Virus record (IMG/VR): IMGVR_UViG_3300045886_000052
Coordinates: 1 to 64,000 of that record
DNA from: a virus
Length of the DNA: 64,000 nucleotides
Strand: one strand, 5' to 3'
Positions 5,581-31,222 of this stretch are shown here, piece by piece (position 1 is the first letter of the stretch; every line of letters begins with the position of its first letter). The translations under genes were made by a program, and so were the position numbers. Under the pieces are notes generated by a model. The model did no database searches. It saw nothing but the letters and a program-made list of their open reading frames with translations, and was not told where the DNA came from.

Positions 5581-5581
5581 T

Positions 5582-9644: not shown

Positions 9645-9648
9645 GCGC

Positions 9649-9744: not shown

Positions 9745-9763
9745 CGGTTAAGCGGATACGTTT

Positions 9764-10568: not shown

Positions 10569-10641
10569 ATTGCCTCTTGCCTCCGGCCAGGGATTGCCGG
10601 CGGGCGTTGGCTAGGGATTGCTGGCGTTGTTCGGGTGTCAT
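10552..10641 (-). CDS. Leader peptide frame with duplicated RQQSLA motif
   Basis: A 29-residue frame starting MTPEQRQQSLANARRQSLAGG. It carries the RQSLA repeat twice and ends 15 bases inside the next gene, whose ATG it overlaps. The motif matches the N-terminus of the 9764-10063 protein and the leaders before two other genes. It may be a coupling leader or a remnant of duplication. Confidence 0.4.
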   Translation of the reverse strand: MTPEQRQQSLANARRQSLAGGKRQYENQN

Positions 10642-10667
10642 AGTTTTAGTCGACGCGGAGGGGAGTT

Positions 10668-10877
10668 TCACCCCTCAACCTGGTTACGCTTATCGAACCT
10701 GGTTCGTAACGCGCGCCGATGTCGCTTGAGCTTTAGCCGCTTCTCAAACTCGCCCGGATGGCATTCAATGAGATGCATAGCCATGCCCAATTCTTGAAAG
10801 AACCGATTGCGGCGCTTCGGACATCCACGCACGGGGCATTGAAAACCTGACCAATTTGTTTGCGCTGCGCATGCCAT
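10668..10877 (-). CDS. C2H2-like zinc-finger small protein
   Basis: 69 residues from an ATG with a good ribosome site (GGAGGAAAGAAC). The core FQCPVRGCPKRR...MHLIECHP has two Cys followed by His and His in a C2H2-like arrangement, and the C-terminus is basic, which suggests nucleic-acid or protein binding. An in-frame ATG at 10946 would add another copy of the DRQQS leader; the internal start is preferred. Confidence 0.55.
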   Translation of the reverse strand: MACAAQTNWSGFQCPVRGCPKRRNRFFQELGMAMHLIECHPGEFEKRLKLKRHRRALRTRFDKRNQVEG

Positions 10878-11013
10878 GTTCTTTCCTCCATTGTTTCTGA
10901 CATCCAGTAAATCCTGGGATTGCTGGCGGTCGGTGGTGGTGGTCATATGGTTTTCAAAGTGAAAGATGCGCCGCCTTCCGGGCCAACGGTAACGCTCTTA
11001 TAGTGCGTCTTTT

Positions 11014-11136
11014 TTACATATGCGGCCAGCAATGAATCTCCTGCGAGAGGCAGGTGAGCGCGAGGCTCTTATCTTCGGCGCTGTCTTTGCTGTTCAGGAT
11101 TTCGGCTTTCTTCTGTTCAAAGTCGGTGATTTTCAT
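11014..11136 (-). CDS. 40-residue hypothetical protein
   Basis: Starts at an ATG 8 bases after AAAGGAG. Charged, probably helical (MKITDFEQKKAEILNSKD). An upstream in-frame GTG has no ribosome site. Too short for a functional call. Confidence 0.5.
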   Translation of the reverse strand: MKITDFEQKKAEILNSKDSAEDKSLALTCLSQEIHCWPHM

Positions 11137-11149
11137 GATTCTCCTTTGG

Positions 11150-11503
11150 TTAGTATCCGCGCTCGTCGCCCGCAACGTCGCGAGTCCGCCAGTCGTTGCC
11201 CTCGTCGTCAATACCAGGAATCTCGGCTGTACCGGCGACCTGCGCGGGCGTGATTGCTTGAGAGGATTGAAATTGGCGAATAGCGTCTTTGACGACCGAG
11301 GCGCCGCGTTCGGCTCTCACGTCAATCGTTCCGTCTGACAGGAACGCTACGAAGCCGTTGTCAATCCAGCCCTTTTTCGCCTGCGTGTTGAATTTGAGAT
11401 AGAGGCGAACGCTCGTTTCTTTCGTCCACAGTTTTGCGCCGTGGTTGTCGTCCGCGTTGATAATTTCCGCTATTGCCTGGGCCGCTTCGATTCTGGTTGC
11501 CAT
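11150..11503 (-). CDS. Hypothetical phage protein, first gene of operon A
   Basis: 117 residues from ATG with ribosome site GGAGGAAAAG. Mixed alpha/beta composition with a KLWTKETSVRLYLKF segment; no catalytic motif seen. It is the first gene downstream of operator copy A (11641-11850), with an 18-bp inverted repeat pair in between. Confidence 0.6.
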   Translation of the reverse strand: MATRIEAAQAIAEIINADDNHGAKLWTKETSVRLYLKFNTQAKKGWIDNGFVAFLSDGTIDVRAERGASVVKDAIRQFQSSQAITPAQVAGTAEIPGIDDEGNDWRTRDVAGDERGY

Positions 11504-11537
11504 TTTCTTTTCCTCCGGTTGTTGTTTCGCTATTTGG

Positions 11538-11638
11538 CAATCAGTAAATCCCACGACCCGATTTTCCCGCAGACCGCGCGAGCCTTGCGACTCTGACCGC
11601 GCTGTCGGTGGTTCCCATTCCGTGGGATTTACTGATTG
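11538..11638. repeat. Inverted repeat pair, 18-bp arms
   Basis: CAATCAGTAAATCCCACG at 11538-11555 and its exact reverse complement at 11621-11638, separated by 65 bases. It lies between operator copy A and the first leftward gene, so the transcript would carry a long-range hairpin in its leader. A similar GGATTTACTG segment appears again near 10905. Confidence 0.7.
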
Positions 11639-11640
11639 TC

Positions 11641-11850
11641 AAACAGCCCTTACGCCGGTATATATAGCAATAGTCATACCGCAGTACGTGGATATAAACC
11701 TAGTGCTGTCAATGCCGCATCGCGGCCCGTTTTCCTATCTATACTATTTGGTACGTAGATTTCGGCCATTTCGGATAAACGTTGATAGCAATAGGGATAG
11801 CTATGCACCAAAACGTATTGCTATTAAACCGTTTGGTGTGATAATTTGCT
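11641..11850 (-). promoter_or_regulatory. Promoter/operator region, copy A
   Basis: First of three related regions (others at 13379-13575 and 14218-14415). It contains the boxes ATACCGCAGTACG, TATTTGGTACGT, CACCAAAACGTATT and AACCGTTTGGTGTGATAATT in the same order as the other copies. A TATAGA -10-like box on the minus strand overlaps the second box. It should drive the genes from 11503 down to 9764. Confidence 0.6.
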
Positions 11851-12075
11851 GACAGCGCCAACCGGACGCCCTACTGGAAGCGGTTCAAACGCTCTCAATT
11901 TAGCCAAGCCGGTCTCGGTCAAAAGTCGTCGCTTGCCGATCAAATAGAAGTCACCGGCCTCTACTGTCAGTGGTTTACCGCGATCCTCGAGCGCTTTGAT
12001 CCGCGAACGGACGGAGCTGCGGCTGGTCAATCCCAGGAGCGCGGCCGCTTGTTCGTAGTTGTATATATTTTCCAT
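11824..12075 (-). CDS. Small helix-turn-helix regulator, copy 1
   Basis: 83 residues. The N-terminal part (YEQAAALLGLTSRSSVRSR) has a helix-turn-helix pattern, followed by a basic C-terminal half. It is nearly identical to the protein at 13550-13801, differing mainly near the C-terminus. It is the last gene of the block driven by operator copy B and sits next to operator copy A. A role as the protein that binds the ACCA-N2-TGGT boxes is an inference from position and duplication. Confidence 0.7.
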   Translation of the reverse strand: MENIYNYEQAAALLGLTSRSSVRSRIKALEDRGKPLTVEAGDFYLIGKRRLLTETGLAKLRAFEPLPVGRPVGAVSKLSHQTV

Positions 12076-12135
12076 AGCTGGATTGTACTCAATTTCCGTA
12101 CCTCGATTTCTCTGTTCGTGCGGCGTGGTCCCATG

Positions 12136-12471
12136 CTAGTACTCCCTCGGTTCATAGCACATTTCGCAGCGGCGAGAAGTGCGGTGTTTCCCGCACGACT
12201 TACAAACGAAAGTTTCAGTGGCTTCGCCCATCGCTATCAATGCTCGCTCCAGGATCGGCACGTTGTGCGCGGCGTCAGCCTGCGCGGCGTCCAATTTCTC
12301 GCGGGCGACTTGCTCGTTTGCGGCCAGGGTGGAATCGAACGCGCCCAACGTCGGCATGGTCACGATCTCCAGGCTGTTGCGCTCTGTCGCCAGCGCGTTG
12401 AGCAGGTCGCGCGCGCTGACCTTGCCCGCCGCGATTCGCTCTTGCAATTTGGTTTCGTTGAGTTGCGCCAT
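12136..12471 (-). CDS. Coiled-coil protein with C-terminal zinc ribbon
   Basis: 111 residues: an alpha-helical N-terminal three quarters and a C-terminal CKSCGKHRTSRRCEMC zinc-ribbon pair. The ribosome site GGGAGGA precedes the ATG. Downstream of a J3-type junction repeat. Function unknown. Confidence 0.6.
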   Translation of the reverse strand: MAQLNETKLQERIAAGKVSARDLLNALATERNSLEIVTMPTLGAFDSTLAANEQVAREKLDAAQADAAHNVPILERALIAMGEATETFVCKSCGKHRTSRRCEMCYEPREY

Positions 12472-12529
12472 TTCATTCCTCCCTTATTCGCGGCCTCGCC
12501 GCAGTTGTGGGGCGTGAGGCCCCGGTAGA

Positions 12530-12757
12530 TTAGTCCTCGTCGTAAATCTTCACGTTATCCATGCCGCGTAATTTCTCTTCTTTCGCTTCCTGAATTGCGC
12601 GGGCGCGAGCCGCTTTCGCCGCAGCGCGTTCTTTGGCCTTCTGCGCGCAAGGCTCGCAGGGGATAGCGTCCGCAGCCCACGGCGTATTTGGCGCGCCGCA
12701 CAGGGTGTGTTGTTCGTAGTTGAACCCGTCTCTGTATTGATGTCTGATTTCCGCCAT
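12530..12757 (-). CDS. Small protein with CxxC and basic helix
   Basis: 75 residues: an N-terminal part with Cys (HTLCGAPNTPW, CEPC) and an Ala/Lys/Arg-rich helix. Ribosome site GGAGGAAGGA. Preceded and followed by J3 junction repeats. The layout resembles small zinc-binding phage proteins of unknown role. Confidence 0.6.
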   Translation of the reverse strand: MAEIRHQYRDGFNYEQHTLCGAPNTPWAADAIPCEPCAQKAKERAAAKAARARAIQEAKEEKLRGMDNVKIYDED

Positions 12758-12824
12758 TTCCTTCCTCCAATTCTCGCGCGGCCCTCGCCGCAGTTATGGG
12801 GCGCGAAGCCCCGGTAGATAACAC

Positions 12825-13010
12825 TTAACCCTCAATGAAAAATGCCGAGTCTCCGTTTTCGTCGTAGGCGTTTACGAATCCGTCGGCAGTGGTTCGCGCA
12901 AGCTCTTTGGCGCGCTCGGTGGCCGCTTTCAGCCCTTCAATGCTCTCTGTTTTTTCTTCGCCGTTGACTTTGTATTTCAATTCGTATTTTCCAGGTTTGG
13001 TAGTTGTCAT
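12825..13010 (-). CDS. 61-residue hypothetical protein
   Basis: Starts MTTTKPGKYELKYKVNGEE behind GGAGGAAAG. Predicted beta hairpin, then helix, then an acidic segment; no family recognised. Lies between two J3 junction repeats. Confidence 0.55.
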   Translation of the reverse strand: MTTTKPGKYELKYKVNGEEKTESIEGLKAATERAKELARTTADGFVNAYDENGDSAFFIEG

Positions 13011-13130
13011 CTTTCTTTCCTCCGTTTCGCGTTGTGAGTTGGGGGCGGTGAGGCCCCGGTGGATTGCTACTTGATTTTGTAACTCGCTGCACGCTCCGGC
13101 ATCGTTCGCGGCGAGAGGCCCCGGTGGACC

Positions 13131-13337
13131 CTAGAAAATGCAGTGCCATTTTTGTTCAATCACCACGTCGGCGTAGCGATCCAGCGTCGCTTGGTCTTCC
13201 TGCGACTGGCCTGGCCCGAACATTCCGCGCATGTTTGCGACCGTGAAATACTCACGCACCTGTTTCTCTGACTCAAACCGATCGCCATTGGCGAATCCGG
13301 TTGAGTCGTTAATCTCGTCAAAATCACTTCGTGGCAT
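13131..13337 (-). CDS. 68-residue hypothetical protein, first gene of operon B
   Basis: ATG with ribosome site GGAGGAAACG. Acidic and polar, ending VIEQKWHCIF. It is the first gene downstream of operator copy B (13379-13575) and is followed by a J3 junction element. Confidence 0.55.
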   Translation of the reverse strand: MPRSDFDEINDSTGFANGDRFESEKQVREYFTVANMRGMFGPGQSQEDQATLDRYADVVIEQKWHCIF

Positions 13338-13378
13338 GTCGTTTCCTCCGATTATCGCGCGGCGTCATTGCCGCTGCG

Positions 13379-13575
13379 ATACTTATTACTAAGCAATCAG
13401 CGTACCACGGTACGCAAGTATAAACTCAATAGAATCAGCGCGGGGTATTGCGCCATTCTGACCGCTACACCATTTGGTACGTGAATTTTGGACATTTCCG
13501 GTAAACGCTGAGAATAAAAGGCTTATCAATACACCAAATGGTACAGCATTTATACCATTACGTGCGATAATTTAG
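13379..13575 (-). promoter_or_regulatory. Promoter/operator region, copy B
   Basis: Carries GTACCACGGTAC (perfect 5-bp arms around AC), ACCATTTGGTACGT, CACCAAATGGTAC and ACCATTACGTGCGATAATT in the same order as copies A and C. The -10-like region next to the second box is weaker here. It should drive the genes from 13337 down to regulator copy 1. Confidence 0.6.
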
Positions 13576-13801
13576 ACGTAGAGCCAAGCGGACGCCCTGC
13601 CGGCAGCGGCTCGAACGCTCTCAGACGGGCCAAGCCGGTCTCAGTCAAAAGCCGCCGCTTGCCGATCAAATAGAAGTCACCGGCCTCTACTGTCAGTGGT
13701 TTACCGCGATCCTCGAGCGCTTTGATCCGCGAACGGACGGAGCTGCGACTGGTCAGTCCCAGGAGAGCTGCAGCTTGTTCGTAGTTGTATATGTTTTCCA
13801 T
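13550..13801 (-). CDS. Small helix-turn-helix regulator, copy 2
   Basis: 83 residues, nearly identical to copy 1 at 11824-12075; the differences cluster in the last 25 residues. It starts at the ATG at 13801, since the conserved first residues MENIYNYEQ begin there; the longer open frame upstream is not shared. Last gene of the unit driven by operator copy C and adjacent to operator copy B. Confidence 0.7.
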   Translation of the reverse strand: MENIYNYEQAAALLGLTSRSSVRSRIKALEDRGKPLTVEAGDFYLIGKRRLLTETGLARLRAFEPLPAGRPLGSTSKLSHVMV

Positions 13802-13854
13802 AGCTGGATTGTACTCAATTTCCGTACCTCGGGCCGATGCCCCGTGGGTTGCTC

Positions 13855-14175
13855 TTATTCGGCTGAAACGAAAGAGCCGCCAGCCTTGCGGAACTTCAAC
13901 AAAATCGTGGTCGGGTTGCCCGCCATCAGCCCGCCGCCTTTGGTGGCCAGGAAGTTGGCGATATTCTTGCCCGTCAAGCACTGCCAATAGGAACCGGTTT
14001 CAGGGTTGTCACCGGCGTCTTCAAGTTCGCGTCGGCGAGCGTCGCTTTCGACTTGCAGGTGAGTCACGTTATCGTCCCTGTCGAACAGTCCCATGACGTG
14101 CGTTCCGTCTTTGACCAGATTGTCGGGATCGATCTCGATATTGATTGTTTCGCGGTTGACTGTGATCGTTTTCAT
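13855..14175 (-). CDS. Hypothetical protein, first gene of operon C
   Basis: 106 residues from an ATG behind GGAGGAAAAG. Beta-rich start (MKTITVNRETINIEI) and a conserved-looking TGKNIANFLATKGGG segment; no motif recognised. Followed by regulator copy 2 and preceded by operator copy C. Confidence 0.6.
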   Translation of the reverse strand: MKTITVNRETINIEIDPDNLVKDGTHVMGLFDRDDNVTHLQVESDARRRELEDAGDNPETGSYWQCLTGKNIANFLATKGGGLMAGNPTTILLKFRKAGGSFVSAE

Positions 14176-14217
14176 TTTCTTTTCCTCCGTTGTTGTTTCG
14201 TTTTCAATTCCAACTGA

Positions 14218-14415
14218 CACTTATTACTAAGCAATTGTCATACCACAGTATGCGCGTATAAGTCCAATGCTGCCAACGCTGCATTTCAGCTTGTCTCGGC
14301 AATTATACCACTTGGTACGTGAGTTTCAACTGGTTACGCTAAATGCTAGAAACAATAGAGATATGAATACACCAAAACGTATTACCATTAAACCATTTGG
14401 TGTGATAATTGAAAA
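14218..14415 (-). promoter_or_regulatory. Promoter/operator region, copy C
   Basis: Best-preserved of the three copies: ATACCACAGTATG, ACCACTTGGTACGTGA, CACCAAAACGTATT and AACCATTTGGTGTGATAATT. The minus-strand promoter at 14302-14329 overlaps the second box. The copy lies between divergent units, the leftward operon from 14175 and the rightward SWIM gene at 14535. Confidence 0.65.
14302..14329 (-). promoter_or_regulatory. Sigma70-type promoter of operon C
   Basis: On the minus strand TTGAAA (14329-14324) is followed after 16 bases by TATAAT (14307-14302). The operator box ACCAAGTGGT overlaps the spacer and the -10, so a bound repressor would block it. Confidence 0.65.
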
Positions 14416-14492
14416 AGAGCGATAACTGGCGCGCCGTAAGCATTGATATAGCAAGAGATATATTTCGGTACAATGGTACGCTGATTGCTTGG

Positions 14493-14498
14493 TATAAT
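14493..14498 (+). promoter_or_regulatory. -10 box of the SWIM gene promoter
   Basis: TATAAT 36 bases before the SWIM ATG, preceded by TACAATGGTACG, which resembles operator half-sites; no good -35 is visible. The gene may be activated or repressed from these boxes. Confidence 0.45.
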
Positions 14499-14534
14499 AG
14501 CGTAGTTGATAACCAGAAAGGGAAGGGAATAGCA

Positions 14535-14897
14535 ATGATCAAACTCGAAAGCAAAACAATGACGAAGGCGATTGAAAGAGCCAAAGCAATCCACCCGAAA
14601 GTGCGCGTAATCAGCGCAACTGATCGGGTGTACGCCGTGACTGGCAGCCGGGGCAACGCTTACACCGTGCGCTTCGTCGTCGCGAACGGCCTGAAGCTCG
14701 GCTCGTGCGACTGCCCGGCGGGCCAGCGCGGTCAAATGTGCTACCACGTAGCAGCTGGGGCGGCCGTGAATATCGGCATCCAGGGAATGCGGCAAGGGGC
14801 TCCGGCCCCTGTCGCGCCGCGGATCGTTCGCAGCGTCGAGCGAGATCAATCTGGCGCGCGGGTGGCCGTAGCTCGCTGTGATAATTGGGTAGTCTGA
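14535..14897 (+). CDS. SWIM-type zinc-finger protein, copy 1
   Basis: 120 residues. It contains CDCPAGQRGQMCYH, a C-x-C-x8-C-x-H SWIM-type zinc motif that binds DNA or protein in known families. The N-terminal half (TKAIERAKAIHPKVRV) and the last residues (RCDNWVV) are shared with the protein at 50696-51064. Starts at an ATG behind GGAAGGGA. A stand-alone SWIM protein, not part of a Swi2/Snf2 helicase. Confidence 0.75.
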   Translation: MIKLESKTMTKAIERAKAIHPKVRVISATDRVYAVTGSRGNAYTVRFVVANGLKLGSCDCPAGQRGQMCYHVAAGAAVNIGIQGMRQGAPAPVAPRIVRSVERDQSGARVAVARCDNWVV

Positions 14898-15015
14898 ATA
14901 GCAAACCTAATCGGCGGCGTGAACAAAACGCCGCACAGATCACACAGTAGCAAGTGTAAGCAGCAAACGGCGCTTACGATCTTTGAAAATTAAACCTCTA
15001 ACGCGAAGGAGACTT

Positions 15016-15249
15016 ATGAATATCATTTCCAAGTTTATGGCCGACAACATCGAAAGCGCGATTCTGGAAGACTTGAAAGCGAATCCCGGCTGGCAATGCG
15101 AGAGTATGATTCACCAACGGATATGTGGCGGTGGCGTTTGGGAGCACTTCCCAGAAACATTCTCGGCATTGGTCAAACTCAAGGAGGAAGGGAAGATAAA
15201 ATCCAGTGGCAACAACGGATTCAATTCTTTCGCTTTCAAACTGGCATAG
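15016..15249 (+). CDS. Possible winged-helix small protein
   Basis: 77 residues from an ATG behind AAGGAGACTT. The pattern of three helices followed by GKIKSSGNNGFNSFAFKL could be a small winged-helix DNA-binding fold, but no family is recognised. It is followed by a strong terminator. Confidence 0.5.
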   Translation: MNIISKFMADNIESAILEDLKANPGWQCESMIHQRICGGGVWEHFPETFSALVKLKEEGKIKSSGNNGFNSFAFKLA

Positions 15250-15252
15250 AAC

Positions 15253-15285
15253 AAAGCGGGCGGGGCGACTCACCCGCTTTTTTTT
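15253..15285 (+). terminator. Rho-independent terminator
   Basis: AAAGCGGG at 15253-15260 pairs with CCCGCTTT at 15273-15280, and the last T residues continue to a run of eight T. It ends the short rightward unit 14535-15249. Confidence 0.85.
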
Positions 15286-15545
15286 ATTCTTTTCAAAAGC
15301 TCCTGCGCCAGTCCATGCGGGCACGGCTCCTTGTTTAGCCAACTATGCGCCTGACAATGGCCTAAATGATCGAACCAGCACTCATCGGGGTCGGTCAGAT
15401 CGGCAAGCAGAGTCAGGATGCCATTGTCGCCCATTGCTATTTCCCCGGTCCCCTCGCAGGGAATCACCATCTCATCGGGTTCGCGTCCGTGTTCGGCCAG
15501 CCTCACGCAAACAAACTGGCCGCACTTTGGGCATTGTTGTTTCAT
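15270..15545 (-). CDS. Small Cys-rich phage protein
   Basis: 91 residues from an ATG behind GGAAGGAAC. Starts MKQQCPKCGQF and carries a CWFDHLGHCQAH segment seen in many phage hypotheticals; the Cys/His content suggests zinc binding. It converges with the rightward unit over the terminator. Confidence 0.65.
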   Translation of the reverse strand: MKQQCPKCGQFVCVRLAEHGREPDEMVIPCEGTGEIAMGDNGILTLLADLTDPDECWFDHLGHCQAHSWLNKEPCPHGLAQELLKRIKKSG

Positions 15546-15563
15546 TGTTCCTTCCTTACTTGC

Positions 15564-15611
15564 AGCGTCGAGCGGGTTAAGGTCGTGCGGGGCGATAACT
15601 GGGTGGTTTAG
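15564..15611 (+). pseudogene. Remnant of a SWIM protein C-terminus
   Basis: The plus strand encodes SVERVKVVRGDNWVV then a stop, closely matching the end of the SWIM protein at 14535-14897 (RSVER...RCDNWVV). Nothing of the N-terminal or zinc region remains. It sits between two leftward genes, so it is a leftover of an earlier rearrangement or duplication. Confidence 0.6.
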
Positions 15612-15931
15612 GCCAGGTCGCTGTTCGGTTCGGTTGGCCACGTCTCGCTCTCTCTGACCCGTTCCACCATGAGAGCATGCCCGGCTTCGGCATCTTCCCG
15701 GGTAGTGTATCGCTCGCATTCCTCATCCAACGTTCCACCAAACACCATTGTCTCGAACAGTATTGGCGCGCCGATCCCACTGAGGTTATGGAGAAAAACC
15801 GTGCTGATCGTGACACCGTTGATTTCGTCCAGCGCTACGAGTCGGTTTTCGGCTTGTGCTAGTCGGCTCCATTCTATTGCGCCATGGCACCGCTTTGGCG
15901 TATGCCCGTCTAAGATATATGAGTCGCCCAT
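15608..15931 (-). CDS. Conserved phage hypothetical protein
   Basis: 107 residues from an ATG behind GGAGGAAGC. The start (YILDGHTPKRC), the FETMVFGG segment and the EDAEAGHALMVERV end are the pattern of a common phage family of unknown function. It belongs to the J4-repeat block. Confidence 0.7.
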   Translation of the reverse strand: MGDSYILDGHTPKRCHGAIEWSRLAQAENRLVALDEINGVTISTVFLHNLSGIGAPILFETMVFGGTLDEECERYTTREDAEAGHALMVERVRESETWPTEPNSDLA

Positions 15932-15966
15932 GCTTCCTCCATTCCACCACGCGGGCCGGGGCGGGG

Positions 15967-16233
15967 TTATTGGCATTTCGTCTCAGTGTGGCAAGGACAC
16001 GAAGGCGACTCGCATCCTTCGCTTACTACGTTTGGCGCGTTAGACCAACCGCTTTTCTCGCATCCGCAGCGCCAGCAAAATTCAGGCTGAGTGTCCGAGC
16101 CGACCTTACCTATCACCAACAGCCTTACATATCCGACGCCTTCACGCGACTCATGCGGATGGCCCTTTGCCTCTTCTACGGTTCCGGCGTGGAACTCGTT
16201 GCAGTGAACGCAGGGTGTAAACGTTTCTTTCAT
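15967..16233 (-). CDS. Cys-rich zinc-binding small protein
   Basis: 88 residues with three Cys clusters (CVHCNEFH, CWRCGC, CESPSCPCH). Ribosome site GGAGAGAAC. It ends in Gln-stop inside a J4 repeat. Function unknown; the Cys pattern suggests at least two zinc sites. Confidence 0.6.
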   Translation of the reverse strand: MKETFTPCVHCNEFHAGTVEEAKGHPHESREGVGYVRLLVIGKVGSDTQPEFCWRCGCEKSGWSNAPNVVSEGCESPSCPCHTETKCQ

Positions 16234-16275
16234 GTTCTCTCCATATCCGCCGCATCCGATAAGACGCGGGCCGGG

Positions 16276-16473
16276 TTATATCCGTTCCGCTTCGGCGATC
16301 TGTTCAGCGTATCCGTTGGCGATAGCCCATTCAGTAACAGACGGGCCTCCGTCCCATGTTGTGTGGTCGTCTGGCGGCGCTTCTCGGTCTAGCCGTGCAA
16401 CTTGTTCAAATTCACCGTTGGTGACGAGGTAAAAATCAACCACGTTACCACGGTCATCAACTTCGTATGTCAT
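16276..16473 (-). CDS. 65-residue hypothetical protein
   Basis: Acidic protein with a predicted beta start (MTYEVDDRGNVVDFYLV) and a helical end. ATG behind GAAGGA. Flanked by J4 junction repeats. No family recognised. Confidence 0.55.
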   Translation of the reverse strand: MTYEVDDRGNVVDFYLVTNGEFEQVARLDREAPPDDHTTWDGGPSVTEWAIANGYAEQIAEAERI

Positions 16474-16503
16474 TCCTTCACCTAAGACGCGGGCCGGGTG
16501 GGG

Positions 16504-16836
16504 TTATTGCTTGCGCTGTGAATAGCAAGCAGCGGCAATGGCGCTCACCTGCTCGAACACTGGGTACATTTCTGGCGACAGAGATAGATGCGCGCGATCC
16601 ATCAACGTTTTCCAGAGTGTTAGCCGCTGCCTGTGCGAGAGGTAGAACCCGTCTTCGTCCCGCGGCTCCTGATAACGCTGCACCACGTCGGCTAGGAATT
16701 GGCGCTCAAACTCGTTAAACGCTATAGATGTTGCAAAGTCGGGATTTTCGATTAGCCATGTAAGCAGCTGCACCTCAATGGCTGTCACCGGGACATAATG
16801 CGACCAGTCGAGTCGCGGGCGTTCGTTACTGCTCAT
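16504..16836 (-). CDS. Helical hypothetical protein
   Basis: 110 residues from an ATG behind GAGGTAAGAG. Mostly helical (NEFERQFLADVVQRYQEP), no catalytic motif. It ends in Gln-stop within a J4 repeat. Confidence 0.55.
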   Translation of the reverse strand: MSSNERPRLDWSHYVPVTAIEVQLLTWLIENPDFATSIAFNEFERQFLADVVQRYQEPRDEDGFYLSHRQRLTLWKTLMDRAHLSLSPEMYPVFEQVSAIAAACYSQRKQ

Positions 16837-16887
16837 TCTCTTACCTCTATTAAGCCATATCCGCCGCATCCGAAGACGCGGGCCGGG

Positions 16888-17241
16888 TTATTGCTTGCGA
16901 AAATCGTAAATCTCAATTCCGGCGCGCTGGGCTTCTTTGTACATATTGGCAGTTCCACGCCCGCCAGGGAATAATGCCACGGCGTCGGCGTATCCAGCCA
17001 TTTGCCGGTTTCTTCTTGGCCCCGCCGATTTACCAAAATGTTCCCATTCGGCGCAGAAGCGTTTAACAGGGATGCCATGCTTGCGCGCCCACTCTTCGCC
17101 ACATTTATCCACACCAGAAGCGCCGCCGGAAACCACTTCTTCAATGGGCGCCACGAAACGGCTGAGCCGCAATTCGTCAAGCAGGGCAATATCGGCATCT
17201 GTGAATTGATAGTCTCTACCGCCTGCGATGATCAATTTCAT
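16888..17241 (-). CDS. SLOG-family (DUF2493-like) protein
   Basis: 117 residues. The motifs IIAGGRDY, VVSGGASGVD, WARKHGIPV and the AGPRRNRQM segment are those of the DUF2493/YspA-type SLOG domain, a Rossmann-like fold proposed to bind nucleotide-derived ligands. ATG behind GGAAGGTAT. It follows the tyrosine recombinase and ends in Gln-stop within a J4 repeat. The ligand here is unknown. Confidence 0.75.
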   Translation of the reverse strand: MKLIIAGGRDYQFTDADIALLDELRLSRFVAPIEEVVSGGASGVDKCGEEWARKHGIPVKRFCAEWEHFGKSAGPRRNRQMAGYADAVALFPGGRGTANMYKEAQRAGIEIYDFRKQ

Positions 17242-17260
17242 ATATACCTTCCGGGTCGGG

Positions 17261-18091
17261 TTATTGCGCTTTCAGTTTAGATGCCAGTTCGCGCCCCTTC
17301 GTCGGATGCGCGTACAGCCCCGTCGTTGCGATGCTGGCATGCCCCACGATCTCGCTCACGTCGGCTAATGGCGCGTTCTCGGCCAGCAGGTGTGAGACGA
17401 AGGCATGTCGGAATTGATGGGGATGAGCGCCTTCAACGCCTGCCGCCTTTCCTGCCGCCTTCACGATCTTCCATGCGTTCTGCGGTGTGAAAGGGAAGGG
17501 GTGATCCTTGTCCCCGGCATTGCCCCGCATCGCTATCAAGTCCCGCCACAGTTCAGCCGACAAATACACCGTCCGTCTTTTCCCGCCCTTGCCTAAAATA
17601 TGCGCCTCGCCGCCGTCTTCCATTGGTCGCAGATCGCACCAGCGCAAGCCCAAAACCTCGCTGATTCGCGCGCCGGTCAGGTACAGAAACTTCAACAGCG
17701 CATGGTGTAGGGGATCGGCTGCCGTGGCTGCAATAATGGCGCGAATCTGTTCCGGCGTAAGCAATGCGCCGTGGTCGACGGAGCGGTCCATCTTCGCGCG
17801 CTCGATCCGCGCCAAGTTGATCGCCGTTACCTCTCGGTTGTTCAGGAAGCGGTAGAAACTGCACACGCTGGCCAGCTTTCGCGCGCGGGTTTTCTCTGCG
17901 CCGTATTCGTCCGCCAGGAACGATTGATAATCCATTATGTCGGCGGTGATGATCTGATCGAACGGCTTGCGTGTATGGGCCAGGAATGCCTTGATGTCGG
18001 CGCGATAGGCGATTGCGGTGTGCTGGCTTCGCCGTTTGCCGGTCGGTTTCAGCCATTCCGCGATCCAGAAATCAACATCTTCGATGTTCAT
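17261..18091 (-). CDS. int: Tyrosine recombinase/integrase
   Basis: 276 residues with a SAM-like N-terminal DNA-binding half and a complete catalytic set: Arg142 (GARISEVLGL), Lys168 (ILGKGGKRR), His225 and Arg228 (HPHQFRHAF), His251 (GHASIATTG) and nucleophile Tyr260 (GLYAH). Length and spacing are those of XerC/D-type and simple phage integrases. It sits inside the small-gene array, not beside the switch region, and its 3' end carries the J4 repeat. It could integrate the phage, resolve dimers or act on the array repeats. Confidence 0.9.
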   Translation of the reverse strand: MNIEDVDFWIAEWLKPTGKRRSQHTAIAYRADIKAFLAHTRKPFDQIITADIMDYQSFLADEYGAEKTRARKLASVCSFYRFLNNREVTAINLARIERAKMDRSVDHGALLTPEQIRAIIAATAADPLHHALLKFLYLTGARISEVLGLRWCDLRPMEDGGEAHILGKGGKRRTVYLSAELWRDLIAMRGNAGDKDHPFPFTPQNAWKIVKAAGKAAGVEGAHPHQFRHAFVSHLLAENAPLADVSEIVGHASIATTGLYAHPTKGRELASKLKAQ

Positions 18092-18133
18092 ATAATTCTC
18101 GTTATATCACGGCGTCGAATTTTACACGCTTTA

Positions 18134-18340
18134 TCATCCACTCTTCCACTCGTTTATAGGCTTTTCCGCGTTTCCGCCAGCCGCCGCCACATCCAATTGC
18201 GTTTCGTATTGCTCATACGGTTCCGGTTCATCTTCCGGTTCGTAGTCGTTGAAGTTATCCAGGTGCCAAAACAGTTTGCACGTCTCTTCGTCTCGACAAT
18301 CGCAATCAATATGCGCCAGTGTGTCAAAGTCGCTATTCAC
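18134..18340 (-). CDS. Acidic Cys-containing small protein
   Basis: 68 residues from a GTG with a near-perfect ribosome site (AAAGGAGGTGATG). N-terminal Cys cluster (DCDCRDEETC), then very acidic. A competing ATG gives only four codons. Function unknown. Confidence 0.55.
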   Translation of the reverse strand: MNSDFDTLAHIDCDCRDEETCKLFWHLDNFNDYEPEDEPEPYEQYETQLDVAAAGGNAEKPINEWKSG

Positions 18341-18381
18341 TTGGCATCACCTCCTTTCACTCGCGCCCCTGCGAAGCCGCG

Positions 18382-18606
18382 TCAGTCGCTTCGCACGTTT
18401 ACCCAATGGTCGCCAAGTTTAACCTGTCGCGCCGATCTGATCTGCGGCTTGATTAACTTAATCAGCGGATCAATCGGGCGATTACAATGGGAACATTGCT
18501 CGGGTTTATCACCATTCCGCAGCGGGATAATTGTGTGATCCCAGAAACAGCGGTAATAAAGAAAATTGTCGGCCATAAACCAGTCGCCGTTGCAGGTGTG
18601 GTTCAT
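18382..18606 (-). CDS. Zinc-ribbon small protein
   Basis: 74 residues with CSHCNRP and earlier Cys residues suited to one zinc site. ATG behind GGGAGTG. The upstream gene overlaps its start by 4 bases. No family recognised. Confidence 0.55.
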   Translation of the reverse strand: MNHTCNGDWFMADNFLYYRCFWDHTIIPLRNGDKPEQCSHCNRPIDPLIKLIKPQIRSARQVKLGDHWVNVRSD

Positions 18607-18860
18607 ATTTCACTCCCGTCCCTCGCATCTTCAACCTCGTCGGTGGCTAGCACGATGCCGTAACAAGCCGCATCGTGATACGCCAGCGAATTGCGAGGAA
18701 AAATGTCTGGTGGTAAATCCATCAAGAAGAAGTGCGTCTCATGTCCTCGCACCCGGATCGGCCTACATTGAAGTCCCGCGCGGAGAGTTACCGTATGGGT
18801 AATTTGTCCCACGCGATAGTGTTTTGTGATGTCGCGTTTTACAACGTATCGCTTGCTCAT
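18603..18860 (-). CDS. Hypothetical beta-rich protein
   Basis: 85 residues from an ATG behind GGGAAT. Starts MSKRYVVKRDITKHYRVG; basic and beta-rich N-terminal half. Its start lies in a J1-type junction and its end overlaps the next gene. Confidence 0.55.
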   Translation of the reverse strand: MSKRYVVKRDITKHYRVGQITHTVTLRAGLQCRPIRVRGHETHFFLMDLPPDIFPRNSLAYHDAACYGIVLATDEVEDARDGSEI

Positions 18861-18867
18861 ATTCCCC

Positions 18868-19053
18868 TCACGCCTCCGCGTCTGCATCGGATTGCTGCGC
18901 GAATCTTGCGCACCTGCAATCTCGATGCGCGCAACTTTCGTCTTCATCGTATCCGCCAAGGTGTTCCGATAGTTTGTGTCCGCAGTCGCATGTCATACCT
19001 ACTGCCTCGGCGTAACTGTTGAACCCTTCGTCTTTCCAATTGAACGCGCTCAT
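18868..19053 (-). CDS. Cys/His-rich small protein
   Basis: 61 residues from the ATG inside a J1 junction (GGAGGGGAAAGAATG). The CDCGHKLSEHLGG...CAHRDCRCARF pattern matches that of the protein at 33365-33622 (CQCEHNLLSHEHY...CKCDYF), a small zinc motif seen in phage proteins. It ends SDADAEA, the J1-encoded tail. The frame is also open upstream to 19287. Confidence 0.6.
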   Translation of the reverse strand: MSAFNWKDEGFNSYAEAVGMTCDCGHKLSEHLGGYDEDESCAHRDCRCARFAQQSDADAEA

Positions 19054-19287
19054 TCTTTCCCCTCCGCGTCCGCACGCATAGTCTCTACGGTGTTGCCTGA
19101 GCGTTCGTCCCTGGCGCTTCAATCTACGCCTTACGCTTTCAACGAACTTGTTCGCCTCTTCGCGCGTGTTGAACTTCTGGTGATGGCGAACCCCGGACTT
19201 GAAACCGCTGCTTCCAGCAATTTGATAACTCGCGCCAGCCGTAGCATACAGCCCCGGTGATAGAGAGTACCCTTTGGGGATAGCCAC
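18868..19287 (-). CDS. Alternative longer reading: two cassettes fused in frame
   Basis: From a GTG at 19287 the frame encodes MAIPKGYSLSPGLYATAG, then a HHQKFNTREEANKFVES segment that looks like a genuine domain, and reads through the J1 junction without a stop into the 18868-19053 gene (139 residues). At the other J1 junctions the element is read in the frame that ends in GKE-stop. Either this is a fusion protein or the upstream part is a damaged or overlapping gene. Confidence 0.4.
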   Translation of the reverse strand: MAIPKGYSLSPGLYATAGASYQIAGSSGFKSGVRHHQKFNTREEANKFVESVRRRLKRQGRTLRQHRRDYACGRGGERMSAFNWKDEGFNSYAEAVGMTCDCGHKLSEHLGGYDEDESCAHRDCRCARFAQQSDADAEA

Positions 19288-19409
19288 GAAAAAGTGTTCC
19301 CGTTCCAGTCGTCAAAAATAAACTCATGGCAGCGGCGACAGTTGCCCGACCACTTGCTACCGGAACGCCAGCCAGCGGCGCGCAGTATTTTATATTGCTC
19401 AGTTGTCAT
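19131..19409 (-). CDS. Small zinc-ribbon protein
   Basis: 92 residues from the ATG in a J1 junction. CRRCHEFIFDD and YHRGCM could form a four-ligand zinc site in the first 60 residues. The C-terminal third overlaps another plausible frame (19287 leftward) and has atypical composition, so the true end may be altered by a frameshift. Confidence 0.5.
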   Translation of the reverse strand: MTTEQYKILRAAGWRSGSKWSGNCRRCHEFIFDDWNGNTFSWLSPKGTLYHRGCMLRLARVIKLLEAAVSSPGFAITRSSTRAKRRTSSLKA

Positions 19410-19629
19410 TCTTTCCCCTCCGCGCCCCTCGCCGCGACTCAAGAATCTTCTCGTATGCCCGCCGCCACGCCTGCGCCGCCGTATTGCCGCTCGCAAATCG
19501 CGGTGAGCCGGGTTCCAGTTTGACGAAAAACCGTGTCGGCAACGAAGTGGTATGTACAATTGGAAACCTGGAGCACACGGCACGTGGATACAATTCCAAG
19601 ACCAGTCTTTTGTCCGCGCCGCCTCTCAT
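19399..19629 (-). CDS. Hypothetical basic protein
   Basis: 76 residues starting at the ATG of a J1 junction. The C-terminal NTAAQAWRRAYEKILESRRGA is a basic helix. It overlaps both neighbours by a few bases. No family recognised. Confidence 0.5.
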   Translation of the reverse strand: MRGGADKRLVLELYPRAVCSRFPIVHTTSLPTRFFVKLEPGSPRFASGNTAAQAWRRAYEKILESRRGARRGKNDN

Positions 19630-19796
19630 TCTTTCCCCTCCGCGTCTGCGTCAACCGACAACGGTGAATGCTCGTCACACCGCACGGTTGATTCATAACT
19701 GGCGCGTCCGCACAGTATCCATGCCGTTTCGCCCTTGACGGTTCGCGTTATCCAGCAAATACCGTTTTCGTCTCGCTCGTGTCTGGGTTCGTTCAT
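19626..19796 (-). CDS. Small protein ending in the J1 tail
   Basis: 56 residues from an ATG behind AAAGGGGAAG. A CWITR and RCDEHSP Cys pair, then the J1-encoded C-terminus VDADAEGKE. The stop overlaps the next ATG (ATGA). An upstream in-frame ATG has no ribosome site. Confidence 0.5.
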   Translation of the reverse strand: MNEPRHERDENGICWITRTVKGETAWILCGRASYESTVRCDEHSPLSVDADAEGKE

Positions 19797-19996
19797 GCTT
19801 CCCCTTTGTCGCACTTGCTATTCAAGCAGCGCCACCAGCCGCCCTTGCCACCGCAGTTGCCACACTCTTCCACTTCGCCGGGGAAACAGTTGATCGGATC
19901 GTCTTCGTAGGCGTCGAAGTACCCGTCGTCGCACCCGCTCCAACAGTCAACCCAATCCATCCCACAGCCGCATGCATTACAGTGTGGCTCTAGCAT
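19793..19996 (-). CDS. DnaJ-type zinc-ribbon small protein
   Basis: 67 residues with CNACGCG, CWSGCDDG and CGNCGGKGGW pairs, the Cys-x2-Cys-Gly repeats of phage zinc-ribbon proteins. Starts at the ATG of a J1 junction and ends on the next ATG (ATGA). Probably a nucleic-acid or partner-binding adaptor; function unproven. Confidence 0.65.
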   Translation of the reverse strand: MLEPHCNACGCGMDWVDCWSGCDDGYFDAYEDDPINCFPGEVEECGNCGGKGGWWRCLNSKCDKGEA

Positions 19997-20235
19997 TCTT
20001 TCCCCTCCGCATCTGCGTCAACCTCTTCTAAGCGTCCAAGCCTGTCGGCAATGATGTCCAGAATAATGCCGATTTCAGAATCTTCGATATTCATCTGCTC
20101 TTCCATCCGCTCACACAGCGCATTGAACAAGTCCGCCGCTGGTAGCCTTCTGAAGTATTCGGCTTCTTCCAGATTGGTTATCAGCCGATTGGCCCACGCT
20201 GCGTCGTATTGTCGGTTAAATTCTTCGTCCGTCAT
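19990..20235 (-). CDS. Helical hypothetical protein with J1 tail
   Basis: 81 residues, mainly helical (MTDEEFNRQYDAAWANRL), ending EEVDADAEGKEC. The J1 element supplies these last residues and the next gene's ribosome site. ATG behind TTGGAGGCGG. Confidence 0.55.
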   Translation of the reverse strand: MTDEEFNRQYDAAWANRLITNLEEAEYFRRLPAADLFNALCERMEEQMNIEDSEIGIILDIIADRLGRLEEVDADAEGKEC

Positions 20236-20272
20236 GTTCCGCCTCCAACCCTAGAGACGGACGCTTGGTTGA

Positions 20273-20476
20273 TTATGTGCAAGTATTTTTCTCCGCGTCT
20301 GCGTCATCTGGAAATTCCATAAACGCTTCAGGCGGCAAATCGTCAGGGTCGAACGGCTCGTCGCAGACACACGACGTAAGCGGCTCGTCGCATTCGTAGC
20401 ACCAAACGCTTTCGTCCGCTTCCAGCCAGTCGTCCTCTTCGAGTTCAATTTGTCCATCGTATGCGATCAGGCTCAT
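20273..20476 (-). CDS. Acidic Cys-rich protein (MSLIA family, copy 1)
   Basis: 67 residues. The first 19 (MSLIAYDGQIELEEDDWLE) nearly match the start of the 20691-20903 protein, after which the two diverge; here two Cys pairs (CYECDEP, CVCDEP) follow. It ends DDADAEKNTCT, a shifted version of the J1 tail. ATG in a J1 junction. Confidence 0.55.
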   Translation of the reverse strand: MSLIAYDGQIELEEDDWLEADESVWCYECDEPLTSCVCDEPFDPDDLPPEAFMEFPDDADAEKNTCT

Positions 20477-20694
20477 TCTTTCCCCTCCACGTCTGCGTCA
20501 ACCGCTACCCACTCCCCATCAAGTGAGTTCTTTAGTTTATCAATCAGCGCCAGAACGGTCGAAGGCGGATAGTATTTACTGCCGTAATTCGGTCTTCTGG
20601 CGTCTTTTTCGAGTTGTTTGAGTTCGCGCTCGTTAAACTCTTTAAGTTCCACTTCGAGTTGGGCCAGCAGTTCTTGCTTAGTCACCGTGCTCAC
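20473..20694 (-). CDS. Coiled-coil small protein with J1 tail
   Basis: 73 residues from a GTG that overlaps the upstream stop. The N-terminal half is a strongly charged helix (LLAQLEVELKEFNERE), and the last residues VDADVEGKE come from J1. Function unknown. Confidence 0.55.
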   Translation of the reverse strand: MSTVTKQELLAQLEVELKEFNERELKQLEKDARRPNYGSKYYPPSTVLALIDKLKNSLDGEWVAVDADVEGKE

Positions 20695-20903
20695 CCCTTA
20701 TTAACGCTGCGTCGAAAGTCGCGCGCCCACTCTTCCGCCATTTCCCGCGTGTAACATTCCATGCGCATATGGTCGCCGGGCATTAGACACTCACCGGAAA
20801 AGTCGCAGCCCCATTGGTATTCTTCGTAGCCATCCGGTTCGTGTTCATCTAACCAGTCGTCCTCTTCGAATTCGATTTGTCTGTCGTGTGCTATTAAGCT
20901 CAT
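20691..20903 (-). CDS. Acidic protein (MSLIA family, copy 2)
   Basis: 70 residues, sharing MSLIAHDRQIEFEEDDWL with the 20273-20476 protein but with an unrelated C-terminal part (HMRMECYTREMAEEWARDF). ATG behind GAAGGAG. The pair suggests exchange of C-terminal halves behind a fixed N-terminus. Confidence 0.55.
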   Translation of the reverse strand: MSLIAHDRQIEFEEDDWLDEHEPDGYEEYQWGCDFSGECLMPGDHMRMECYTREMAEEWARDFRRSVNKG

Positions 20904-20905
20904 GT

Positions 20906-21112
20906 TTACTCCTTCGGGGCGGCGTCAATGCCAGCCGCCCTGACGAATGCGGCAACGGCTTCGGCTTCGTCTGGCGTTTCTATCACCCGTTGCTGTAGTC
21001 CGGTATTTCTATCGGTGTAAACCACCCATTGATTCTCGCCGTTGTCCCACTCAAGCCATACGTAGTCCGTGGCAAGCCAGGTGTCCAGTTTGAGCAAGTC
21101 GAGAATGGTCAT
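20906..21112 (-). CDS. Hypothetical protein
   Basis: About 68 residues; the GTG at 21115 or the adjacent ATG at 21112 can start it, both coupled to the upstream TGA. Acidic with a Trp-rich start (DTWLATDYVWLEWDNG), beta then helix. No family recognised. Confidence 0.5.
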   Translation of the reverse strand: MTILDLLKLDTWLATDYVWLEWDNGENQWVVYTDRNTGLQQRVIETPDEAEAVAAFVRAAGIDAAPKE

Positions 21113-23334: not shown

Positions 23335-23574
23335 TTACTGCTTCGCTTCCCGTTGCTGGAGATCGCAGGTTGCCGGGTGAAAAGCTTCCAGCCCGCCTTG
23401 GTTGATCTCCATTTGAGGCGGGCATGCATTGCGCGTTCGTCCGTCTCGCTGCTGTGAGAGCGCTTCCGCCCTCGCCTCGGCTTCGCGCAGTTGCGCTTCG
23501 AGTTCGGCTATGCGGGCGTTGGCAGCGTCCAACTCTACTTGCGTGTCAATTAAGTCAAAGTATTCAGCGCTCAT
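23335..23574 (-). CDS. Coiled-coil small protein
   Basis: 79 residues with an N-terminal helix (NARIAELEAQLREAEARAE) similar to a segment of the 398-residue coiled-coil protein, including AEALSQQRDG, then a short Cys-containing end. ATG behind AGAGGGAAC. Probably a duplicated fragment of the larger gene. Confidence 0.5.
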   Translation of the reverse strand: MSAEYFDLIDTQVELDAANARIAELEAQLREAEARAEALSQQRDGRTRNACPPQMEINQGGLEAFHPATCDLQQREAKQ

Positions 23575-23586
23575 AGTTCCCTCTTT

Positions 23587-23898
23587 CTATTCCGCGTCCG
23601 GCTGCGCGCCCGGCGCGGTGGTTGTGGCAAAGCCGGGTCCAGTCTCAAGACTGACGCGCAATGCGTTGAGTAGCCGGCACAAGCAGTTGCGGCATATATC
23701 GGGCGGACCGCCGAAGCCGGCTGGGTGATCCGTAAAGGACAATACCGGCCGGACCACCAGTTTGCATTGCTTTACGACTGGAAGAATATTGCCGGGGCTC
23801 GCCGAGTTGTATTCCTCGCCTATATGTTGGACGACCTCGACCCGCGCGGCGAGGTCCCACGCAGGTTCTTCACAAAGATCGCAAAATACTTTTTTCAT
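23587..23898 (-). CDS. Zinc-binding small protein
   Basis: 103 residues with CDLCEEP at the start and CRNCLCR later, consistent with one zinc site joining the two ends. ATG behind AAAGGAAA. No family recognised. Confidence 0.55.
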   Translation of the reverse strand: MKKVFCDLCEEPAWDLAARVEVVQHIGEEYNSASPGNILPVVKQCKLVVRPVLSFTDHPAGFGGPPDICRNCLCRLLNALRVSLETGPGFATTTAPGAQPDAE

Positions 23899-23912
23899 AT
23901 TTTCCTTTCTGG

Positions 23913-24185
23913 TTATGCCGCGTCCGGCTGAGTGTTCAGCATTTCAAACTGAGTGCCGATCGCGTTGTTAATCAGTCGAGCAAGGTTGCGATCTTCGTCG
24001 TTGACAATTCCCTGCCCGGTGCGAATGAACGATATAAGCCACGTCTGCCGCGCTTCAGCGTCGTCAGCTTGCATTCTGAACTCGCCTTTAGCCGCCTGAG
24101 TCAGCATGCTTAAATGGGCCAGTGCGATCATGGTTTGCTCGTCTGAGTCAGCCAGCAATAATGGCGGCCTTGTTTTGTTTGTCAC
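23913..24185 (-). CDS. Helical hypothetical protein
   Basis: 90 residues from a GTG behind AAGGAGAG. Entirely helical (DEQTMIALAHLSMLTQAAKG). Overlaps the upstream gene's end by 38 bases. No family recognised. Confidence 0.5.
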   Translation of the reverse strand: MTNKTRPPLLLADSDEQTMIALAHLSMLTQAAKGEFRMQADDAEARQTWLISFIRTGQGIVNDEDRNLARLINNAIGTQFEMLNTQPDAA

Positions 24186-26307: not shown

Positions 26308-27864
26308 TCAATCCCGATCAGAGTCGGACTTAGCCAGAACCGTATAGGTCGTCGTGACGACTAATTTAGAACTGGATAAAAAGCCGGCCGTCCTGAGGCT
26401 CCACCACTTGCCGTTCGCGATTACCTCGATCCGCAGTTCTTCCAAATCGAGCCGCTTTCGCTCGAACGTCAACTCGCCGGCTGTCTCAGCCGCAAGCCGC
26501 GCGCAGGTCTCGTAAACCTGCTCGACGCCCACGCGCCCGCCCTGCTGCTCGCGGAGATCGCGCTCAATCTCGGACGCTTCCAGGCGCAGGCGTTCGCGCT
26601 CGGCTTCGATCTCACCAATCTCTTTTTCAATGAGCGCTGCCACGCGCCCCTCGGCTTTGCGCAATCGTTTTACCAATCGCTCTTGCTCAGCGCCGCGCTG
26701 CTCGATCTGGCTACGAACGATACCGAACCGCGACGTCAATTGCTCGACGATTCCGACCGTGCGCGCCAGGTCGAGCGCTTCGATGAGGCTGTCAGGATTG
26801 TTGACGAGCCACACGAAGCGCTCCCAGACCTCGCGCTCGATCCGGTCGGCGCGCACTGACTTTCCGCCGCAGCGCGTATATCCGTTGTGGTGGCGCTGAA
26901 ATTCCGAGGCGCAGCGGTAGTAGTAAAGACCGTGCTGTATGGCGACGTACATCCGCGCGCCGCAGCTCGCGCAGAAGATCAAGCCCCGCAGCAGCGCCGG
27001 TCTGCTCTGGTTGCGCAGCGCCTCGCCGCGGTTCGCGTCGAGCCGTTCCTGCGCTTTGTCCCAAACCTCGGCGTCCACCAATGGCGGAAAGATCCCGTCC
27101 GGCATTCGCAGTAGCTCGCCGCCGTGTCTGTACGCCCACGCCTCGCCCTTGTAGGCGGGATCGCGCAGCAACACGCGCAATGTTCCGGGATGCCACTGCC
27201 CCTTGCATTCACCGCGAGATGTGAAGCTCGTCGGGACGCCCGAGCGGTTGAGATCCTTACAGATCGTTCGCAGCCCCTGCCCGGCGCAGACTTCACGGAA
27301 AATACGGCGCACGATTTCCCCTTGGGCGTCGTCTATCTCGGCAATCCCCTGCTCGCGGTTTTTCCGGTATCCGAATTTGTCCCGGCCGCCGCCCCAGATT
27401 TTTCCCTCCATCACCTTCTTGCGTTTGCCGCGCATTGTACGGTCGAGGATCTTGCCGATCTCACCGGCGGCTTCGTGTCCGGCGACGAGCGCCATGATCT
27501 TTCCGGCAATCGTCGTGAGGTCGAGCGGATTTCTTATGAATCGGACTTCGGTATTGAAGTGGCGAAATTCAACGAGCAGGTAGAAAATATCTTCCGCCTC
27601 TTCGCCGCGGATCAATCGATCCTGCGCGTAGCAATAGACGATCTGCCGCTCGCTCTTGTGCTGCTCGAGCGCGGCGCGCAATTGGCTCAGCTCCGGTATG
27701 GCGCGCAGGTCTCGCCCCGAAAACTGCACTTCGTACTCGCGGTCGGGCGTGACGCTTACGTCATCGGCTGCCGCGGCTTCACGGCAGGCGTCAAGCTGGC
27801 TTTTGATCGAATATTTTTCCTCGTCGTAGAGGTTGGACTCCCGCGTCCAGATGTAGCCGATCAT
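26308..27864 (-). CDS. Large serine recombinase (integrase)
   Basis: 518 residues. The N-terminal resolvase domain has the nucleophile Ser10 (IWTRESN), the SIKSQ segment and QDRLIRG; a recombinase domain follows; the zinc ribbon is CASCGARM with later Cys near residues 300-345; then a long coiled coil (residues about 375-460). This is the layout of phage large serine integrases. Located next to the divergent switch, it is the likelier main integrase. A second, tyrosine-type recombinase exists at 17261-18091. Confidence 0.9.
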   Translation of the reverse strand: MIGYIWTRESNLYDEEKYSIKSQLDACREAAAADDVSVTPDREYEVQFSGRDLRAIPELSQLRAALEQHKSERQIVYCYAQDRLIRGEEAEDIFYLLVEFRHFNTEVRFIRNPLDLTTIAGKIMALVAGHEAAGEIGKILDRTMRGKRKKVMEGKIWGGGRDKFGYRKNREQGIAEIDDAQGEIVRRIFREVCAGQGLRTICKDLNRSGVPTSFTSRGECKGQWHPGTLRVLLRDPAYKGEAWAYRHGGELLRMPDGIFPPLVDAEVWDKAQERLDANRGEALRNQSRPALLRGLIFCASCGARMYVAIQHGLYYYRCASEFQRHHNGYTRCGGKSVRADRIEREVWERFVWLVNNPDSLIEALDLARTVGIVEQLTSRFGIVRSQIEQRGAEQERLVKRLRKAEGRVAALIEKEIGEIEAERERLRLEASEIERDLREQQGGRVGVEQVYETCARLAAETAGELTFERKRLDLEELRIEVIANGKWWSLRTAGFLSSSKLVVTTTYTVLAKSDSDRD

Positions 27865-30848: not shown

Positions 30849-30988
30849 TCTTTTCAAAGTCGAGACGACGGGGATCGTTTCGATTGCGCGGCGGACGATC
30901 ACGGGGGCCGTCCAGCCGCTTTTACCGGGGCGCGGTGTGGCCATAGCAGGGAGTCACGCCGCGTCTCCGGGTTTCGATCTTTTACAAG

Positions 30989-31127: not shown

Positions 31128-31131
31128 GACC

Positions 31132-31209: not shown

Positions 31210-31222
31210 TGATCTTTTCCAG

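Follow-up and report, generated by a model that had tools for sequence, protein, structure and literature searches.

Small-gene cluster and source virus

The locus described here is a run of small genes on the minus strand, several of whose junctions carry a short repeat, referred to as J1. It lies in a window of 64,000 nt, which comprises most of the 68,079-base record IMGVR_UViG_3300045886_000052. The genes concerned include one encoding a protein that starts with MSLIAYD (20273-20476), a paralogue of the gene at 20691-20903 with which it shares 16 of 22 residues at the N-terminus, one ending in VDADAEGKEC (19990-20235), one encoding a Cys-rich protein (19793-19996), one ending in VDADAEGKE (19626-19796), one ending in RRGARRGKNDN (19399-19629) and one encoding another Cys-rich protein, which ends in SDADAEA (18868-19053). 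Gene starts in the leftward region were picked by hand using open reading frames (ORFs) and SD matches. Searches of the J1-flanked proteins against Pfam and PHROGs gave no convincing match. The cluster is flanked on one side by a tyrosine integrase gene (17261-18091, minus strand), located just to its left, and on the other by a large serine recombinase gene (26308-27864, minus strand). A RecT-family single-strand annealing protein is encoded on the plus strand at 34170-35297 and is a candidate enzyme for short-homology recombination at the junctions.

The phage is tailed and has genes for TerL, a tape measure and a tail fibre. Its TerL is 51% identical to that of the nearest annotated relative. 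The sole close relative of this TerL that was found, at 68% identity, is located on a 6.8 kb fragment, and those of the remaining viral contigs are 39-43% identical; the RecT of the phage had no match in any contig of this last group. The same virus is also represented by another record, the second assembly IMGVR_UViG_3300049730_000127 (50,427 bases), which shows at most two mismatches in the aligned stretches. It extends from window position 36,904 to the end of the record and then through window positions 1-19,378, and it includes only one copy of J1, the one at 19055, whose positions 19051..19073 are identical there. The spacing from window position 64,000 to window position 1 is 3,952 bases in the second assembly versus 4,079 in the record from which the window is taken, which points to a 127-base end overlap and hence to a closed genome of approximately 67,952 bases. 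The second assembly breaks at window positions 36904 and 19378, the latter of which falls within the J1 cluster, and these breakpoints could be marks of strain variation.

The J1 repeat and its copies

J1 (GGTTGACGCAGAYGYGGAGGGGAAAGAATG, 30 nt, minus strand) is present in three copies with 29-30 of 30 positions identical, each ending on the ATG of a gene. The reference copy (19627-19656, 30/30) holds the VDADAEGKE end and the stop codon of gene 19626-19796 together with the SD and the ATG of gene 19399-19629, the two genes overlapping by ATGA. The copy at 20474-20503 (29/30) combines the VDADVEGKE end of gene 20473-20685 with the SD GGAGGGG and the ATG of gene 20273-20476, again through an ATGA overlap, and the copy at 19994-20023 (29/30) combines the VDADAEGKEC end of gene 19990-20235 with the SD and the ATG of gene 19793-19996 through an ATGCTAG overlap. 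The SD of the full copies, GGAGG, is positioned approximately 7 nt ahead of the ATG, and the stop/start overlaps amount to 4, 7 and 4 nt at starts 20476, 19996 and 19629, respectively.

The other copies, also on the minus strand, are partial. Two of them keep the half with the SD and the start: a right half of 21 nt (GGGCGCGGAGGGGAAAGAATG, 19407-19427) contains the SD and the ATG of gene 19131-19409, the upstream gene reading ESRRGARRGKNDN up to its stop codon in another frame, and a right part of 23 nt (GCGGACGCGGAGGGGAAAGAATG, 19051-19073) contains the SD and the ATG of gene 18868-19053. Two others keep the tail half. The first (GACGCAGACGCGGAG, about 20291-20305) is found at the end of gene 20273-20476, which reads DDADAEKNTCT, and has no start codon; the second (GATGCAGACGCGGAGG, 18873-18888) is found at the end of gene 18868-19053, which reads SDADAEA, and the start of the next gene is preceded by a different sequence. 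The junction of the paralogue MSLIAHD (20901-20930, minus strand) is more diverged, with 20 of 30 positions identical to J1 without gaps, a tail reading GIDAAPKE and an ATG, and it may represent the ancestral form from which J1 derives. When up to three mismatches were allowed, the J1 19-mer was found five times in the window, always on the minus strand (20478-20496, 19998-20016, 19631-19649, 19055-19073 and 18867-18885), versus 0.02 matches expected by chance. For the 30-nt J1, first-order Markov shuffles of the window reached at most 20 of 30 positions.

The five start-bearing copies share the minus strand and an identical register on the ATG, and are restricted to seven consecutive genes. 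The left ends of J1 copies vary (31, 30, 23 and 18-21 nt), the right end being shared, at the ATG. What all start-bearing copies have in common is the DNA for the SD and the start rather than the peptide, which is not constant across them: a different frame is used at one copy, and a third by the sole long ORF open across another. The latter ORF, open across the copy at 19055, reads CGRGGER-M and is in frame with the ATG of the next gene. Just upstream of the 19053 start, the overlapping ORFs 19131-19409 and 18868-19287 (within 18868-19412, minus strand) are each partly protein-like, which suggests a frameshift or overlapping genes; since the frames conflict around this copy, the identity of its upstream gene is uncertain. 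Four of the five start-bearing junctions overlap (by 4, 7, 4 and 11 nt) and one shows a gap of 77 nt. A full J1 has the geometry classically associated with translational coupling, with stop and start overlapping or nearly so and the SD inside the upstream gene.

The initial annotation had described J1 as a three-in-one junction, in which the same bases encode the C-terminal tail of one protein and give the next gene its GGAGGGG site and ATG. The repeat is real, but it is looser than described, as the strict form applies to three of the seven copies. The C-termini had been read correctly (VDADVEGKE, VDADAEGKEC, VDADAEGKE and SDADAEA, each followed by the stop codon). The derivation of GGAGGGG and ATG from the same bases holds for starts 20476, 19996 and 19629 but not for the SDADAEA copy, which is a left half only; likewise, the three functions coincide in the three full copies but not at 19055, where no upstream gene ending in DADAEGKE was identified as reaching the copy. 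Recurrence in other phages, which had been put forward as a check, was not found: searches of IMG/VR with J1 patterns at three stringencies matched only this virus, through its second assembly, and the tail DAD[A/V]EGKE, in any codons, was found in no other IMG/VR virus. The exact J1 pattern was absent from a GTDB-based genome set, the J1 region gave no match to phage records by megablast or blastn, and single-protein searches with two cluster proteins and the protein of one neighbouring gene gave no match either. No relatives covering the J1 region were found, and the available material consists of one virus in two near-identical assemblies; as no relative with an altered gene order around J1 was found, gene exchange at J1 was not observed.

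Junctions, gene bodies and other junction families

Junctions (the 48 nt ending at the start codon) and gene bodies (the next 60 nt) were compared separately by local-alignment score (match 2, mismatch -3). Pairs of genes with a full J1 score 51-57 in the junction and 10-14 in the body, the average body score of all leftward gene pairs being 12.5. The reverse is observed for MSLIAHD (20903) and MSLIAYD (20476), the sole paralogous neighbours, which score 56 in the body and 14 in the junction. Junctions are thus common to unrelated genes and differ between related ones, which means that J1 was copied, or homogenised, without the genes; its copies are either younger than the genes they serve or homogenised apart from them. 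This decoupling also supports the initial proposal that the proteins are unrelated and have their tails in common only through the DNA element that overlaps the junction. With their varied left ends, the fixed right end at the ATG and two left-half orphans, the J1 copies resemble recombination tracts, and we infer that these tracts are limited on the right by the need to retain the ATG.

J1 is not the only junction family, a point missing from the initial annotation. Among the 44 leftward genes, 19 of 946 junction pairs score at least 28, a threshold reached by none of 946 pairs of coding stretches and none of 1035 pairs of rightward gene starts. The high-scoring pairs fall in six local families including J1, each limited to neighbouring genes; their mean span is 3.7 genes versus 21 expected, and none of 100,000 shuffles was as low, with or without J1. 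All six families are on the minus strand. The second (15929-17258; starts 17241, 16836, 16473, 16233 and 15931) has the sequence CAATAACCC..ACCCGGCCCGCGTCTT and also overlaps upstream gene ends, which read RKQ before the stop codon in two genes. The third and fourth (12469-14235) comprise starts 13337, 12757 and 12471, and starts 14175 and 11503 (reaching down to 11501), respectively. The fifth (23572-23940; starts 23898 and 23574; CAGCCGGACGCGG) yields the tails QPDAA and QPDAE, and the sixth (10267-10610) comprises starts 10568 and 10269, with the sequence CCGCCRGCAATCCCTRGCCGGAGG. That every family stays within one neighbourhood is consistent with copying over short distances and speaks against a single trans-acting regulator.

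In a small panel of five comparison phages (Limnohabitans phage DC33, BPP-1, Caulobacter phage SR18, Gordonia phage Blueberry and lambda), the number of pairs scoring at least 28 was 0-2 in each case. Lambda, in which junction repeats had been expected, gave a negative result, with no pairs even at a score of at least 24. Mycobacteriophage Anaya, in which SAS are known, gave 59 pairs at the threshold of 28; these form one main family of 15 of 17 genes plus a single pair, with a mean gene distance of 21.9 versus 21.6 in shuffles. The Anaya family is therefore dispersed and families of the J1 type are local, and this is one point in which they differ from SAS.

Repeats of other kinds are also present in the window. 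The leftward region contains a 300-nt direct repeat with 83% identity (11739-12038 and 13465-13764), which lies near the D11 repeats (13378 and 14216), where CTTAGTAATAAG and inverted elements also occur. A TPEQRQQSLAxARR-like segment is encoded by a 50-nt element that is found at 10007-10056, 10597-10646 and 45294-45343; two copies are near the junction family at 10 kb, and the copy at 45 kb is more diverged. Five copies of a 20-mer of the TTCGATCTTTTACA type, with inverted repeats nearby (31339/31432), are found at 30970-31868 and could be operators or iterons. Finally, an array of imperfect coding repeats of 60-69 nt, similar to ATCRCSCC..GGGAATCGC..GCCGAAGCGTTCGG, occupies 61827-62479 on the plus strand.

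Related systems and possible origin of J1

In position and content, J1 is nearest to the SAS/ESAS of cluster K mycobacteriophages, which are short asymmetric repeats with an SD core, found in one orientation immediately 5' of the ATG of unrelated non-structural genes (Pope 2011, PMC3203893). Their conservation exceeds the SD, the upstream stop codon may fall inside the repeat, and most of the genes concerned are separated from the preceding gene by over 50 bp (PMC3203893). All five start-bearing copies of J1 similarly have a single orientation, a location directly upstream of start codons and an SD core inside. In contrast, J1 is found mostly in overlapping gene ends instead of gaps above 50 bp, encodes a tail, and is local and accompanied by five other families, whereas SAS are dispersed over the non-structural half. 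The 13-bp SAS consensus GGGATAGGAGCCC had no match in the window with up to two mismatches. In proposed function, J1 is nearest to the PeSL of T4-type phages as cited in PMC4503421 (Arbiol 2010; Comeau 2014), which are mobile regulatory cassettes with an early promoter and a stem-loop. According to that source, PeSL also lie between small accessory genes and are proposed to shuffle genes while carrying an expression signal; J1 differs from this description in showing neither a promoter-like site nor a stem-loop and in carrying translation signals inside an operon. No sigma-70-like promoter on the minus strand (the only promoter type searched for) and no terminator-like site were found at J1, and its RNA folds no better than shuffles (z -0.7 to +1.5). 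J1 works partly like both systems and is assigned to neither.

The nin region of lambdoid phages likewise consists of a series of small genes whose stop and start codons overlap (ATGA), but the junctions of lambda have no common extended sequence in the test used here. As for the route of exchange, Rad52-like phage annealers, including those of the RecT type, recombine short and diverged homologies in phage crosses, and the minimal pairing segment of Red-beta is 23-27 bp (PMC3945230), a length reached by the full J1 copies (30 nt). The resemblance to such recombinase-driven mosaicism is that it offers a route for short-homology exchange in a virus that encodes a RecT; it is, however, a mechanism and not a junction element, and no recombinants were observed in this virus.

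Several other explanations of J1 have to be weighed. Tandem duplication of units made of a gene and its junction, with bodies that diverged beyond recognition and junctions held by selection for translation, seems unlikely to us. The junction families are local, the cluster contains one true paralogue pair (20903/20476) and the leftward region contains the 300-nt duplication with 83% identity (11739/13465), all of which could be expected from such a process. However, the bodies flanked by J1 show no residual similarity, three copies differ by at most one base in the left half outside the SD, synonymous sites included, and the only detectable paralogue pair has diverged junctions, which is the opposite of the prediction. 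We consider it quite unlikely that J1 is a regulatory start-associated element to which a protein, an RNA or the ribosome binds, co-regulating the translation of a subset of genes, as proposed for the SAS of cluster K. This would account for the single orientation, the fixed distance to the ATG, the SD inside, the conservation past the SD and the non-structural nature of the genes. It would not account for the five other sequences used by neighbouring genes, for families that are local, unlike the dispersed main family of Anaya, for the absence of a notable fold at the J1 copies or for the two start-bearing copies without a left half.

Selection of the acidic C-terminal tail DADAE(GKE) itself, for instance as a degradation or localisation signal, with DNA identity as a consequence, is very unlikely. 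The reading frame is identical in all five left-half copies overlapping gene ends, which leaves room for selection at the peptide level, and the tails QPDAA and QPDAE show that another local family also yields a common tail. Nevertheless, conservation of the DNA extends to synonymous positions, some start-bearing copies have no tail, and DAD[A/V]EGKE is confined to this virus in IMG/VR; the common peptide tail more likely arose incidentally from the DNA than through selection. To chance we give hardly any weight. ATGA overlaps and gene ends overlapping an SD are frequent in phages, and dense packing, a favourable SD and a composition bias to DA/AE codons could produce some similarity, but the scores observed were reached by neither set of control pairs (0/946 and 0/1035), the comparison phages yield 0-2 pairs each, and the 19-mer expectation (0.02) and the shuffle maximum (20/30) also contradict it. 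An assembly artefact at repeats is just as improbable: the record is derived from a metagenome, but J1, at 30 nt, is far below the putative assembly end overlap of 127 nt, and the second assembly agrees across window positions 8908-19378, one J1 copy included.

On balance, we regard it as somewhat probable that J1 is a short gene-junction linker, locally copied in a leftward operon of small accessory genes, whose copies likely spread by short-homology recombination. As a full copy covers the end of the upstream gene, with its last codons and stop, and then the SD and the ATG of the downstream gene, a gene bounded by J1 would keep a working stop/start junction at any position, and a gene inserted or exchanged via recombination between two J1 copies would retain such a junction on both sides. 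Recombination between short homologies, plausibly helped by the phage's own RecT, would spread the copies, so that genes, or junctions alone, could be exchanged or duplicated while the linker stays constant. Judging from the geometry of the junctions, ribosomes would re-initiate from the upstream stop, which amounts to translational coupling. It is sensible to infer from the sequence, as the initial annotation did, that J1 could let any inserted gene be translated. A more general possibility, which is tentative and in our opinion doubtful, is that linkers are specific to their neighbourhood, each operon block having its own interchangeable one, which would combine C-terminal codons, stop, SD and start and also provide the homology by which RecT would drive the exchange of cassettes.

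These observations bear on the question of how phages acquire and shed small accessory genes while their densely packed operons stay intact. Identical C-termini in small phage proteins may stem from junction DNA and not from protein homology, which calls for caution when such tails are interpreted. J1 linkers probably help phages to swap small genes without breaking translation. If this is true, a linker that preserves both the stop of one gene and the start of the next, and that varies by neighbourhood, would represent a concrete device for the turnover of accessory genes.
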